DNA of 64,000 nucleotides, from positions 1 through 64,000 of the forward strand of contig PHBP01000003.1 in assembly GCA_002842035.1 (NCBI GenBank), written 5' to 3'. The notes beneath the pieces were generated by a model, which was not told the DNA's origin, did no database searches, and saw only the letters and a list, made by a program, of their open reading frames with translations. This document shows positions 10,505 through 37,079 of the stretch, piece after piece. The translations under genes and the position numbers were made by a program. Source of the stretch: Candidatus Cloacimonetes bacterium HGW-Cloacimonetes-2 (GTDB lineage: Bacteria > Cloacimonadota > Cloacimonadia > Cloacimonadales > Cloacimonadaceae). Within the stretch, counting starts at the first letter, position 1, and each line of letters opens with the position of its first letter.

Positions 10505-10567
10505 CTTTCTCCTTGATAGGATGCTTGTATCCTGCCTGTATCCTGCTTGAATCCTGGATGAACAAGC
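10504..10567 (-). repeat. Dispersed 11-bp-period repeat, copy 1
   Basis: On the minus strand this reads GTTCATCC followed by three 11-bp units, AGGATTCAAGC, AGGATACAGGC and AGGATACAAGC, then ATCCTATCAAG. The same order recurs on the plus strand at 21329-21392 and, shorter, at 29211-29264. It lies directly behind a terminator. Confidence 0.8.
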
Positions 10568-10667
10568 AGGAAGCAACTGATTTATCAGTGTCTTAGAGAT
10601 GTTCATTGAAAAGGAGCGTAAAAAGCGAAACCCGGGACTTTTGCCGCTCCATAGGCAATTTTTTCTC

Positions 10668-21254: not shown

Positions 21255-21527
21255 TTGCTTTTATATCAACCTCTTAGCCCTCCCTTTCGATTCTGCATTG
21301 CTAAGTAATTGTAAAATAGCTCTTTGATGCTTGTTCATACAGGATTCAAGCAGGATACAAGCAGGGAGCAAGCATCCTATCAAGCAGAAAGCAGGTGGGA
21401 ATCAGGTTTTCTCTATGCCCTGTTTTTGTAGATTTGAGGCTATATTACAAGATAGTGGAATGGATATTGCAAAAGATATCAATTAGCGTTTCGGGTGAGA
21501 AGCGCTCAGTTTTGAACAGAGGAATGA
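21255..21527. other. Intergenic region upstream of pgsB
   Basis: About 270 bp between the glycan-cluster terminator and pgsB. It holds the second copy of the 11-bp-period repeat (21329-21392). The remaining part must contain the pgs promoter, but no convincing boxes are seen. GAGG before 21528 is the ribosome-binding site. Confidence 0.5.
21329..21392 (+). repeat. Dispersed 11-bp-period repeat, copy 2
   Basis: Reads GCTTGTTCATAC, then AGGATTCAAGC (21341-21351), AGGATACAAGC (21352-21362), AGGGAGCAAGC (21363-21373), then ATCCTATCAAGC and AGAAAGC. Nearly the same 60 bp occurs inverted at 10504-10567. It follows the terminator by about 80 bp. Confidence 0.82.
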
Positions 21528-29033: not shown

Positions 29034-29359
29034 TGTAACTGAGGCATATATCTAAACAGATTCTCAGGACTACCAATTACTGATGGGGGAGAGCTGTAAC
29101 CAGTACCAATGCCCTATCTATGTATCTGCGTTCAATGCATATATCTATGCCAATAGCCCCTCTTTAAATGAAACTATCCTAAATCATTGCAGGACAACCG
29201 TATCATTTATGTTCATCCAGGATTCAAGCAGGATAGAAGCAGGGAGCAAGCAGGAATTGAAAGAGCGGGTAATAACTCTTGCCAATGCACCACTATGTAG
29301 TGACAAGAAACCGTGCAGAGTTCTCGAAGGATATTGATAGGAAATGAAATCCAATAGAA
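29034..29359. other. Intergenic region after the M28 gene
   Basis: About 325 bp without a credible gene. It holds repeat copy 3 at 29211-29264. An open frame at 29083-29337 has no ribosome-binding site and runs through the repeat. The bidirectional terminator follows at 29361. Confidence 0.55.
29211..29264 (+). repeat. Dispersed 11-bp-period repeat, copy 3
   Basis: GTTCATCC, then AGGATTCAAGC (29219-29229), AGGATAGAAGC (29230-29240) and AGGGAGCAAGC (29241-29251), then AGGAATTGAAAG. It shares the leader and unit order with copies 1 and 2 but lacks their ATCCTATCAAGC end. Confidence 0.8.
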
Positions 29360-31901: not shown

Positions 31902-34193
31902 TCACTGCCCCAAAGTACTAGAATAGCACTTTGTAACTCCAGGCAACTGATTAGTCGAAAACGAGTAATTATAATGGTCTAAATAATTCTCCATCATAAA
32001 GATTTGATTGCGATATTCCGTTGGATGACTCTGCGGGCTATCAAATGATACATGATCTTTTACTAGGAAGTAGTCGCTGGATAAACTATAAAATTTCCTT
32101 GTAACATTACATGGATTGTCGTCGTTATCAAAGCTTGCAGGGTTAAAGTTGTTTGGTGATTGCTTTAGGCTGTTGTTATAGAGATAGCTTATCTTGAGAA
32201 GCTCAATCAGTTCACCAGTATTGTTCTCACAATTGCTGATCAAGAAGTGTTTTCTTGCTTTAGTATGATACGGTTTTGTTACTTGATTTATATGCAGCCA
32301 AGACGCTGGCCAATGATCAAAATTCATGGGATCTTGGTACCGTATTGATCCTGAGTTTTCTCGCAGATAATCTGCTTCACACTTTGTGTTCTGGTTGAAA
32401 GGTAATTCCGGGTTGATTAATAACAGGTTTTGTGAATATGATGACTTGTACCAGTTTGGATAGATTATATTACCGTTCGAGTCATTCGGAGTATATCCAG
32501 GCTCAATAATCAGAGGCTTTCCCCAGAGATAGAATTGATATGAGGTCGAATCGTTGTTGTTGTGAAAAGGAAGGAATGAATTCTCATGATTGACAACTAG
32601 CATATGGGAATTTTCGTACGGACTTAAGCTAGTAGGTTTTCGAAAAATTGTTGACTCTGAATCGCTCAATGTACCGTCAAGTATGAATCTAGGTAAGGAA
32701 GCGCCAGAAGTTATTGATACTGGCTCATGTTGTGGGCGGTCTTTGTAACTCATAACAACTTCAAAACTTGATTTCAAGGTATCCCATTCGAAAGCTTCAC
32801 GAGGCAATGATCCTGCCTTTGAAGTCAAGGCGGCAACATACCATCGGATGTTATCTTGAGTATCCTGATCTTCTGTTTGGTAGTAAAAGCAAAGTAAACC
32901 GCGTTCTATCTGAATTGAATGGTCCATTTCGGGGACAGGATCGCCGTTTGAGTTGATGCCATTGTATCGCCAGTCGTCGCCATAAGTTATATGGTGCAAC
33001 TCAGGATCTATACGCCTAAGAGTATATCTGACCATTCTGGGTATCATGTCACAATTCCAGTCGTTATCAGTGCTGTAGAGATTGATGTCTCTGGTTCGAT
33101 TTAAGGCAGTTAAAAACAGTGTTGATAGGTAAAACAGTCTATTCTGATAGGTTATGCCTCCTACAAACATACCACTATTAGATGTTAAATAATCATTAAA
33201 ACCATAATATGCTGTTTCTGACGGTAAAGGACTATCAGATTTGAATTCCTGTCTCACAAAGGAATTCAACATATCGTCATCCCCTGTAATAAGGCTGGCA
33301 TACCCCATACCACAAACCAAATGGAATCTTGATACAGAGTTACCAATGCTGGGTAGATCGCCGTTAATATTGTTATCGGAACATAATCCTTTGGGTGCAG
33401 CTACAATAACGTCATTATTATATTTATCTTCATAATTCCATCCAAAAGGATAAGATGGAACTCCCACCATACTCCAACTATCATCAACACCTGGTAAATT
33501 ATACCTAAAAAAAGAGGAGTGTATCCAGTCTACGTGAAGTTGTATTTTTTTTATTATCCCAGAATCTGGATTATGGACTTGGAAATATTCTGTCGTTGAT
33601 GGATCATTATAAGCGTAGTATAACATATCGACAATGAAAGATATTAGTATAAGATTATAACTCATCTCTCTGGCTCGCTGATACGCTGTCAATTCCCACC
33701 AAGCCTCGTCCTCGTAGGGATTATGGCTTTGTGGATTGGCATCCCATTCGGTTGGGACCATACCCGGTAGGCCACTTGGGTAATAATCTTGGTATCTAAG
33801 CGCATTCTGATAGATATCCCACGGGAAAGTAAAGAGGTAAGTGCGGACTTCGTCGAGTTTAACAGAATATACATCGGGGTCAATAACATAACTCAATACT
33901 GCTGTGTAAGCTTTAATCGCTTGGGGTTCGAACCCAAAGCTGTCTGTATATGACCTATCTCTTAATCCTTCACCAATATCTACAATGTCTGATCTGGGTG
34001 ATTGCTCCCAGTACTTGTGTATTAAATTGTCGTATGGCTCGCCACTTATCGTACCCGCTGCTCTACGAATCTGATACAACGTTTCAGTGTCGATTGAGAA
34101 AGTGTGTGTTAATGGATAGACTGCCATAAGTTTTTGAGCCACCATTAACATAATAAACATGATAACTATTGCCAGGATTCTACCTTGTTTCAT
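31902..34193 (-). CDS. 5' part of a split heparinase II/III-like lyase
   Basis: 763 residues up to an in-frame TGA at 31902-31904. A signal peptide (about 1-24, GRILAIVIMFIMLMVAQKLMA) is followed by an alpha-helical toroid-like region (about 30-470) and the start of a beta-sandwich. The segment NHENSFLPFHNNNDSTSYQF followed by GKPLIIEPGY recalls the conserved His-containing opening of the heparinase II/III C-terminal domain, which suggests an uronate-polysaccharide lyase. Reading through the TGA would give a 1597-codon frame ending in a sorting tail. AAGG lies before the ATG. It is the last unit of the minus-strand operon, 17 bp after the gene at 34211. Enzyme class is an inference from weak motifs. 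Confidence 0.7.
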   Translation of the reverse strand: MKQGRILAIVIMFIMLMVAQKLMAVYPLTHTFSIDTETLYQIRRAAGTISGEPYDNLIHKYWEQSPRSDIVDIGEGLRDRSYTDSFGFEPQAIKAYTAVLSYVIDPDVYSVKLDEVRTYLFTFPWDIYQNALRYQDYYPSGLPGMVPTEWDANPQSHNPYEDEAWWELTAYQRAREMSYNLILISFIVDMLYYAYNDPSTTEYFQVHNPDSGIIKKIQLHVDWIHSSFFRYNLPGVDDSWSMVGVPSYPFGWNYEDKYNNDVIVAAPKGLCSDNNINGDLPSIGNSVSRFHLVCGMGYASLITGDDDMLNSFVRQEFKSDSPLPSETAYYGFNDYLTSNSGMFVGGITYQNRLFYLSTLFLTALNRTRDINLYSTDNDWNCDMIPRMVRYTLRRIDPELHHITYGDDWRYNGINSNGDPVPEMDHSIQIERGLLCFYYQTEDQDTQDNIRWYVAALTSKAGSLPREAFEWDTLKSSFEVVMSYKDRPQHEPVSITSGASLPRFILDGTLSDSESTIFRKPTSLSPYENSHMLVVNHENSFLPFHNNNDSTSYQFYLWGKPLIIEPGYTPNDSNGNIIYPNWYKSSYSQNLLLINPELPFNQNTKCEADYLRENSGSIRYQDPMNFDHWPASWLHINQVTKPYHTKARKHFLISNCENNTGELIELLKISYLYNNSLKQSPNNFNPASFDNDDNPCNVTRKFYSLSSDYFLVKDHVSFDSPQSHPTEYRNQIFMMENYLDHYNYSFSTNQLPGVTKCYSSTLGQ

Positions 34194-34210: not shown

Positions 34211-35572
34211 TTATTTGATTACTACCAGTTTGGTAGTAGCGATTCTTATATTTGCCTGATCCAGACTAATCAAGTAAACACCGTTGGACATGAGTTCTAA
34301 AGCTTCGTGTGGCAACTCAAAACTTTGCTCTCTGCTATGCCCATAGATCTTACCGGAATATATTCTTTGTCCCTTGATATTGAAAATGCTGTAACCTAGT
34401 TCCCCCACCTGTTCACTTTTAACCGAGATCATAAGCTCGCTATTTGCGGGCTGAGGATAGCACACGATGGATGCCACGGGAGCGGGAGTGATAGGATCGT
34501 CATTGGCTACTACATATCCTTCGGAATCTGTTTTTATCAGAACATAGTCATTATGGTACATACAAAAAAGAATACTACCGTCTGGCATCACCAAGAGGTT
34601 CTTTGATCCTGTCCCAAAGTAAATTGCTCCAAATGTGTTATACGATCTACTCCATTGAAGTGTCCCATCGGGGTTGTAGCTATGGAGGATCGGACCTGTG
34701 TCTGGTCTGCCTCCGGTATAGACGATGTTACCGTTTGGAAGCAAGTTTATAGCACCATGTAGGTCAGAATCAAAGCCAGGAGTATTAGCAGCTACCAGAT
34801 CCAGTGTATGCTCAATTATATCTACTTTCCAGATCTTATATAAACCAAGCAGATAAATGCTGTTATCCGCTGCTACAGTACAGTCATAGAACCCGGTATT
34901 GTTTATTGTGTCATAGTAAGTCCATAGGGTATCACCTACTGCATTGATTTCAGTAAAAACTCTACTCGAAAGAGAAACCCATCCATTTCCGAAGGGTTCT
35001 ACTGAACGTGCTTGACCCACTGCCCAAAAAGGATCGCTCTGCCAGATTAAATTAAACTGGAAATCGGTTTTAAGAACCACAGCTTGGCCATTGACTTTAC
35101 CAGCACATATTAATCCGTCATCTACATACTGCATATCAAAGATATGTGGAGAGTATCCATTCACTAAGGGAAAAACATAGTAGCCAAGAGTATTCATCTC
35201 ACTATCAAAGACGAACAACCTAGAACCATTATAAAAGTACTGAACACAGTAATACCTGTCAATTCCATTGGATACTATGCTGTCGAAAGCACCGCTCTGT
35301 CCTCCTGTCCTTCTCCAGATTAGATCACCATTCTCATCCAGCTTCCAGAATACATTAGTATCATAGATTGGAGTACCTATCCATCCATAACTAGCATAGC
35401 CTTGGAGTAGGTAACCACCTCCTATCGCCGGGATAATGTTGCATAATTCCAGACGTGATCCATCATAAGTCCATGGACATATTCCGGTAAAGTCAGCGCT
35501 CCTTATCCAGGTCGAGCCCATCAGCAGATAGGCAGACGAGACTAGCAGAGCTATTAATAAGATCCGTTTCAT
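34211..35572 (-). CDS. Secreted beta-propeller-like protein with sorting tail, paralog A
   Basis: 453 residues: signal peptide (1-18, KRILLIALLVSSAYLLMG), a domain of about 350 residues built of short beta repeats around Trp-Lys-x-Asp motifs (NVFWKLDENGDLIW, WKVDIIEHTLDL), and a C-terminal tail with IVCYPQPANSELMIS and IFNIKGQRIYSGK ending in IATTKLVVIK, a T9SS-like sorting domain. The repeats look like a PQQ/Kelch-type propeller of the delta-60-repeat kind. The ATG at 35572 is set by GGGAGG; the preceding micro-ORF stop overlaps it (ATGA). It is paralogous to the gene at 35688-37079, with 50 bp of identical DNA over the signal peptide. Function unknown, probably surface binding. Confidence 0.8.
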   Translation of the reverse strand: MKRILLIALLVSSAYLLMGSTWIRSADFTGICPWTYDGSRLELCNIIPAIGGGYLLQGYASYGWIGTPIYDTNVFWKLDENGDLIWRRTGGQSGAFDSIVSNGIDRYYCVQYFYNGSRLFVFDSEMNTLGYYVFPLVNGYSPHIFDMQYVDDGLICAGKVNGQAVVLKTDFQFNLIWQSDPFWAVGQARSVEPFGNGWVSLSSRVFTEINAVGDTLWTYYDTINNTGFYDCTVAADNSIYLLGLYKIWKVDIIEHTLDLVAANTPGFDSDLHGAINLLPNGNIVYTGGRPDTGPILHSYNPDGTLQWSRSYNTFGAIYFGTGSKNLLVMPDGSILFCMYHNDYVLIKTDSEGYVVANDDPITPAPVASIVCYPQPANSELMISVKSEQVGELGYSIFNIKGQRIYSGKIYGHSREQSFELPHEALELMSNGVYLISLDQANIRIATTKLVVIK

Positions 35573-35676
35573 CGATCCTCCCAATCAATCGTGAATGTAC
35601 GTTCAATAGCCTGTACGGGACATATTAGTGCGACTAATAGCCCAATTAATCCTAGTACGGCATAATTATGTTTCAT
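35569..35676 (-). CDS. 35-codon secreted micro-ORF between paralogs
   Basis: A short frame of 35 codons: ATG at 35676 with GGAGGAG 4 bp upstream, then a signal-like helix (YAVLGLIGLLVALICPVQA) and the short mature part IERTFTIDWEDR before TGA at 35569-35571. That TGA overlaps the ATG of the next gene. It starts 12 bp after the stop of paralog B. It could encode a tiny exported peptide, act as a coupling leader for paralog A, or be the stub of a lost gene whose mature start was ERTFTID. No homologue is recognised. Confidence 0.5.
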   Translation of the reverse strand: MKHNYAVLGLIGLLVALICPVQAIERTFTIDWEDR

Positions 35677-35687
35677 GATCTCCTCCA

Positions 35688-37079
35688 TTATCTGGTTTTG
35701 ATAAATTTCTTTGATATGCTTGTTCCTGAGTGTTCATCCTTTACGCGGTACATATAGACCCCTGGAGCCCAACGGGAATCCGTGTCCTGGAGCAAGCTAA
35801 GCTGATGAGAGCCTTCGCTTCCGGTGAGTGGACAGGAGTAGAGCATTTGTCCCCGGATATTAAAGACTTCCAGAGTCAATATGCTTTCCCGGCTTTCGGC
35901 TTTGTAGTCTATTGTGATTTGATCGCTGGCAGGATTTGGGTAATGGGAACTGCTTATTGCAGATGGAGTAAGGATGGGATCCTCATTCGAGACTACTATG
36001 CCATTGCTGTCCGTCTTAACAAGGGTTATACCATCATATCCTACTGCACAGAATAGAATCTCATAATCATCTGTGGTGAGAATATTGCTCGCTCCATATC
36101 CTAATGAAGAGCATACAGTTGGACTGAAATATCTGCTCCAAAGTCGCTCACCCGAACGAGAGTAAGCGCGAAGTATTTCACTATTTGGACCCAGATCATA
36201 AAAAACCAACTTGCCGTCTGCTCCTTCTATTAATGCTGGTGGATACAAACCTATATATAGATTGTAATCAATAGGTATTGTTGTTACGCTCTGGTTCGTG
36301 AGATCGAAACCAAATAGGTAGTAATCTCCAGTGACTCCATGAAATCCGATACCGAAAACTTGATTGTCATGAGTTAGAATGCAATCTTGGAAATAGTACG
36401 GCTCGCTATTGCCATCATAAGTCCATATAGTGTCACCTACTGCGTCCATAAATGCTATCAAACCAGTTGACGCTCCTATCCATCCTCCGTTAAATCTGTT
36501 GAGTTTTGTGAATCCACTTACGATATGATTGGTTGTGGAATCGCCCAACCACTCAAGATTGAGCTCAAAATCAGTTTTCAATATAACGGCCTCGCCATAC
36601 AACTGTACGGCAAAAACTATACCATCATCAGTTATAACTGCATCGTTGATGGAGGGATAAATCCCATTAATCAGCTCAAAATCATATGACCCTATATAGT
36701 TCATTTGATTATCATATATCTCCATCCACGAATAACCCGAGATTGACGCAATGCAATAGTACCTATCGACACCATTAGAGATAATTATATTGTACGGCTC
36801 CCACCGTAAACCTGATCTCCTCCAGATGACCTCCCCATTCTCATCGACTTTCCAGAAGACGTTTGCCGCCCACACCCAAAACTCATAATCAAAATACTCA
36901 ACGAACCCTTGAACCAGATAACCGCCTCCGATGGCGGGGATAACGTTGTAAGCTTTGATACTAAGGTAGTTGTACTCATAAGGACAGACTCCTTCAATTG
37001 AGTAGGATCGTATCCAGGTCGAGCCCATCAGCAGATAGGCAGACGAGACTAGCAGAGCTACTAATAACAACCGTTTCAT
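35688..37079 (-). CDS. Secreted beta-propeller-like protein with sorting tail, paralog B
   Basis: 463 residues, same plan as paralog A: signal peptide (1-18, KRLLLVALLVSSAYLLMG), mature start STWIRSYSIEGVCPYEYN, the shared motif NVIPAIGGGYLVQGF, repeat strands such as NVFWKVDENGEVIWRR, and a C-terminal tail opening HYPNPASDQITIDYK with LEVFNIRGQMLYS and ending SISKKFIKTR. The body has diverged clearly from A while the leader DNA has not. GGAGG lies 4 bp before the ATG. It is the first gene of the minus-strand operon that runs to 29400. Likely exported to the cell surface; function unknown. Confidence 0.8.
   Translation of the reverse strand: MKRLLLVALLVSSAYLLMGSTWIRSYSIEGVCPYEYNYLSIKAYNVIPAIGGGYLVQGFVEYFDYEFWVWAANVFWKVDENGEVIWRRSGLRWEPYNIIISNGVDRYYCIASISGYSWMEIYDNQMNYIGSYDFELINGIYPSINDAVITDDGIVFAVQLYGEAVILKTDFELNLEWLGDSTTNHIVSGFTKLNRFNGGWIGASTGLIAFMDAVGDTIWTYDGNSEPYYFQDCILTHDNQVFGIGFHGVTGDYYLFGFDLTNQSVTTIPIDYNLYIGLYPPALIEGADGKLVFYDLGPNSEILRAYSRSGERLWSRYFSPTVCSSLGYGASNILTTDDYEILFCAVGYDGITLVKTDSNGIVVSNEDPILTPSAISSSHYPNPASDQITIDYKAESRESILTLEVFNIRGQMLYSCPLTGSEGSHQLSLLQDTDSRWAPGVYMYRVKDEHSGTSISKKFIKTR

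Follow-up and report, generated by a model that had tools for sequence, protein, structure and literature searches.

The window (the whole stretch of 64,000 nucleotides that was analysed) carries two members of one gene family, A and B, on the minus strand, with A directly behind B. Three further paralogs, C, D and E, complete the set of five found in this genome. The features needed for what follows are:

31902..34193, minus strand: gene after A, 763 aa; N-terminal relics of it follow E-type genes elsewhere
34211..35572, minus strand: gene A, 453 aa; E-type body and B-type leader; C-terminal Por_Secre_tail; ATG at 35572
35501..35509, minus strand: TGGATAAGG, W-I-R codons of gene A, where the putatively transferred tract ends on its 3' side; conserved family-wide
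35504..35553, minus strand: 50-nt tract of gene A, shared without mismatch by B and D; codons 7-23, from the signal peptide to TWI
35570..35582, minus strand: RBS and start of gene A, GGGAGGATCGATG; the RBS is E-type
35569..35676, minus strand: signal-peptide-like ORF of 35 aa between B and A; its stop overlaps the ATG of A
35688..37079, minus strand: gene B, 463 aa; BCD subfamily, same family as A; Por_Secre_tail
37011..37060, minus strand: 50-nt tract of gene B, identical to the gene A copy
C11:20680-22059: paralog C
C1:84263-85621: paralog D
C2:388727-390040: paralog E

The ORF caller puts the start of gene A at an upstream TTG; the ATG at 35572 was used in our analysis. All five copies are intact open frames, each with its own RBS, and an alignment scan identified Candidatus Cloacimonadota as the hosts of the family; the genomes retrieved in these scans all belong to other species. 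The 35-aa ORF upstream of A (MKHNYAVLGLIGLLVALICPVQAIERTFTIDWEDR) has no relative in its own genome and could be either what remains of the start of some other exported protein or a coupled leader peptide; its presence there indicates that the upstream DNA of A was not copied from that of B. On the other side of A, the 763-aa gene survives behind E in the same genome (G000) and behind the E-type genes of G007 and UBA6081 only as N-terminal relics interrupted by stops (loci L005, L048 and L063), and thus A and the 763-aa gene form an E-type unit. In G001, a genome of the same genus, the 17.5 kb of DNA preceding mraZ and mraW contain neither A nor B, so that the A/B pair may have arrived recently at its site. 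The window also contains a structured, intergenic-looking repeat of ~115 nt (10508-10614, plus strand; 21328-21388 and 29210-29252, minus strand), which is found as well downstream of paralogs D and C (L083, L084) and amounts to at least 40 scored copies (100 candidates), 75-100% alike, in the 2.5-Mb genome. Searching 20 relatives, two congeneric ones among them, yielded no match to this repeat; its copies in the window match no Rfam family, and it looks like a REP or MITE-type element specific to the species.

Profile searches assigned a C-terminal PF18962 (Por_Secre_tail) domain to both A (30.6 bits) and B (37.9 bits) at a cut-off of 27, which identifies a type IX sorting domain in the two proteins. 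Their N-terminus reads as positively charged and then hydrophobic, and residues 2-18 form a helix in the structural model. The AlphaFold model of the gene B product (mean pLDDT 82) consists of a beta-propeller followed by a C-terminal beta-sandwich, and its PDB matches are mostly propellers, the first being PorZ (5m11, E 6e-11), with modest TM-scores of 0.36-0.51; the profile search against solved structures gave a weak match only. The family proteins are predicted on this basis to be exported, type IX-tagged beta-propellers with a C-terminal sorting sandwich.

A previous sequence-only reading of this DNA had pointed to 50 bp of base-for-base identity over the signal peptides of A and B, and both the coordinates and the identity proved right. 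That reading placed it over most of the signal peptide and the mature start, through STWIR; the segment covers codons 7-23 of both genes through TWI, and on the coding (minus) strand it ends in TGGATA, the W-I codons of the conserved T-W-I-R. If a few mismatches are allowed, the likeness extends over 78 nt at 95% identity, beginning at the RBS or a little before the ATG and ending at TGGATA. The remainder of the two genes has indeed diverged strongly, their proteins being ~40% identical overall, and the 50-nt tract is the longest exact match over the whole genes. Searching the genome for further copies retrieved D on contig C1 (50/50) and C on contig C11 (47/50), whereas E, which lacks this leader DNA, matches at 28/50 positions. 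B and D share 88 exact nucleotides at the leader before their identity falls to ~72%. These four family copies are the sole matches in the genome, no unrelated gene carrying the segment, and the leader DNA is absent from 40 relatives.

Comparison of leader and body revealed that A is a chimera of two subfamilies. The body of A (codons 26-453) is 71% identical in DNA to E and 46% to B, whereas for its leader (codons 1-25) the values are 53% with E and 91% with B and D. A therefore combines an E-type body with a B/D-type leader, which argues for transfer of the leader between subfamilies. Accordingly, the body trees place B, C and D in one clade (100/99 for protein, 100/100 for DNA) and A with E and homologs from other genera, the split between BCD and A plus the E-group reaching 100/100 in the DNA tree. 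In the leader DNA tree, which is clear with restricted rows and uninformative when long-branched rows are included, A groups with B, C and D (99/98), and constraining it to join the E-group is disfavoured (AU p=0.038). Since the body DNA tree is still formally compatible with a grouping of A, B, C and D against the rest (78/69), it is less the topology than the distances and silent sites that carry the conflict between leader and body. Among codons that specify the same amino acid in A and B, 18/20 are identical in the leader against 52/136 in the body (Fisher p=1.1e-5), so that synonymous sites are not equally conserved elsewhere in the pair, and the run of 18 consecutive identical codons was reached in 0/20,000 permutations. 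The DNA is thus more conserved than the protein needs, as had been proposed from the sequence. Finally, the RBS of A is E-type, so that on the 5' side the tract begins at this site or immediately behind it, and the upstream DNA of A is unlike that of B. The piece that moved would therefore be an internal patch of ~50-80 nt and not the end of a bigger duplicated block.

These observations make it highly probable that the 50-nt identity is a short and recent tract of gene conversion, i.e. non-reciprocal recombination. The sequence-only reading had also considered a conserved RNA element or localisation signal, and selection on mRNA structure, translation or targeting could in principle hold the leader DNA identical; its presence in four paralogs and a GCCTATC/GATGGGC hairpin inside it are compatible with such constraint. 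Constraint of this kind should be visible between genomes, and the silent sites speak against it. Within genomes, identical silent codons amount to 126/144 in leaders versus 768/1370 in bodies (p=1e-14), whereas between genomes the E-type genes of five genomes show no leader excess (110/176 versus 1813/2875, p=0.87), with groups that were picked after the pattern had been seen and gene pairs that are not independent. Over all 107 between-genome pairs the leader is even lower (423/1077 versus 9085/18223), and the excess of leader over body reaches at most 0.45 within genomes and at most 0.16 between them. Leader silent sites are hence kept only among the paralogs of one genome; an excess within genomes and none between them are the two signs of concerted evolution by gene conversion, and the silent-site pattern is its signature. 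Further points against an RNA element are that E, in the same genome and protein family, does without the leader, that the leader DNA does not occur in the 40 relatives and that its RNA folding is unremarkable (z-scores of -1.6 and -1.0). Moreover, the gene G002b of the same genus resembles the BCD type in its first 56 residues, yet has a different leader that shares 3/11 silent codons with B. Neither silent sites nor structure being conserved between genomes, we consider a conserved cis-acting RNA leader or codon constraint very unlikely.

It could also be envisaged that A originated as a tandem copy of B into which an E-type body and its downstream gene were joined at TGGATA, leaving the B-type leader as the sole remnant. 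The placement of A immediately after B in the same orientation, the cohesion of the E-type unit of body and 763-aa gene, the sharp joint at TGGATA and the lack of both genes upstream of mraZ in G001 would all fit such a body replacement. However, a tandem copy of B should have brought along the upstream DNA and RBS of B, in place of which A has the unrelated 35-aa ORF and the E-type GGAGGATCG, and this makes the scenario improbable. An assembly or binning artefact, in which a metagenomic repeat was collapsed or mis-joined, is brought to mind by the frequency of family members at contig ends in other genomes and by a run of N downstream of D. Against this, the copies in A and B lie 1.5 kb apart with distinct flanks, deep in one 258-kb contig, a third copy resides on another contig, A, B, C and D each have private substitutions near the tract, and the assembly comprises 14 contigs at 99.55% completeness. 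The artefact, which the sequence-only reading had named as a possible refutation, is consequently extremely unlikely.

According to the gene-conversion explanation, leader DNA of the BCD subfamily would have overwritten the original E-type leader of A, with either B, its direct neighbour, or D as the putative donor. The edges of the tract probably correspond to short words shared by the family, GGAGGA-N-CGATGAAA on the start side and GACNTGGATA where the mature part begins, and these words may have served as pairing ends, a plausible role given how little the flanks of A and B resemble each other. Candidate routes include RecA-dependent conversion, short single-strand annealing and template switching; the shortness of the tract and the ~50% identity of the flanking A and B DNA offer poor ground for the RecA-dependent one. 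ComEC is present in this genome, so that DNA uptake is possible. On the other hand, no reverse transcriptase (PF00078) was matched in this genome in a search whose positive controls did match; there is hence no sign of a diversity-generating retroelement, and that candidate was rejected. An exchange of this kind would plausibly mix surface variants while the export signal stays working, and the pattern as such suggests a role of the family in surface variation. It is tempting to speculate that the segment encoding the signal peptide is a favoured module of exchange and that leaders swap onto any body, within and between genera, the RBS/start-codon and W-I-R words acting as pairing ends in microhomology-guided conversion, but we hold this generalisation to be rather doubtful.

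When 21 genes from nine genomes were scanned in pairs, more than 80 high-identity tracts emerged, from 39 to >500 nt in length and mostly between diverged flanks; across the family these tracts are scattered along the whole gene. Absence of recombination was rejected by the PHI test for the five paralogs (0/500 permutations), for the E-group (0/500) and for a set of 13 genes (0/300). The gene G002a of the same genus has an E-type leader up to TGGATACGC and is identical from there on, over 83 nt, to G021 of another genus, and in G058c a diverged leader is joined to an E-type mature start. Together with A, these genes point to at least two and perhaps three joining events at TGGATA, and joints are also found away from it in the family. 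The tracts shared between genera require transfer of DNA. The whole family is thus pieced together from short recombination tracts, both inside genomes and from one genome to another. The option of gene conversion limited to the leader, raised by the sequence-only reading, is supported as to conversion and, for A and B, as to the limitation, which does not extend to the family with its scattered tracts. Reuse of the leader by new cargo genes, raised in the same place, applies in the narrow sense of an E-type body with a B-type leader and fails in the broader one, as no unrelated gene uses the segment. Family genes are often cut by contig ends in G002, G005, G007 and G058, as expected from their shared identical stretches. 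In G005, two family copies (L075 and L076, at the end of contig C2 and the start of contig C1) are cut by contig ends at the same codon; these and several others suggest that Cloacimonadota assemblies tend to break in this family.

Our findings thus provide a clean example of leader exchange from a poorly studied and largely uncultured phylum, in which a family of predicted exported beta-propellers evolves through recombination in dense, short tracts that extends even from genus to genus. Phylogenies and orthology assignments of family genes are accordingly unreliable, and metagenome assemblies break at these genes. The pattern points to diversifying surface proteins, of which none has been studied in such organisms as far as the searched literature shows; the same literature yielded no publication dealing with recombination among surface proteins of Cloacimonadota. 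The process as such is known already, and the new elements are the protein family, its phylum and the fact that the homogenised piece is the signal peptide. Mosaics built by segmental gene conversion underlie the antigenic variation of Anaplasma msp2 and Borrelia vlsE (PMC4534519); mosaicism by the same means is the likeness to our genes, among which, in contrast, neither a single expression site nor a silent archive was observed. In Helicobacter pylori, one segment of the babA/babB and homA/homB genes evolves in concert (Pride and Blaser 2002, as related in PMC3960876): in these exported paralogs one segment is homogenised by intragenomic conversion, others differ, and chimeras arise by intragenomic recombination (PMC3960876). 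Exported surface paralogs, homogenisation of a segment within the genome and chimeric genes are thus common to both cases. However, the homogenised part of the Helicobacter genes is the 3' end and not, as here, the signal-peptide segment together with many scattered tracts, and their products are outer-membrane adhesins of an unrelated family and phylum, not beta-propellers. Surface proteins of Porphyromonas gingivalis, many of them type IX-exported, are mosaics generated by recombination and allelic exchange (PMC5266723) and so resemble the present family as recombination-diversified surface proteins, often with the same route of export; they differ in that whole domains or alleles are swapped between strains, whereas here paralogs, and also genera, have tracts of 50-500 nt in common.
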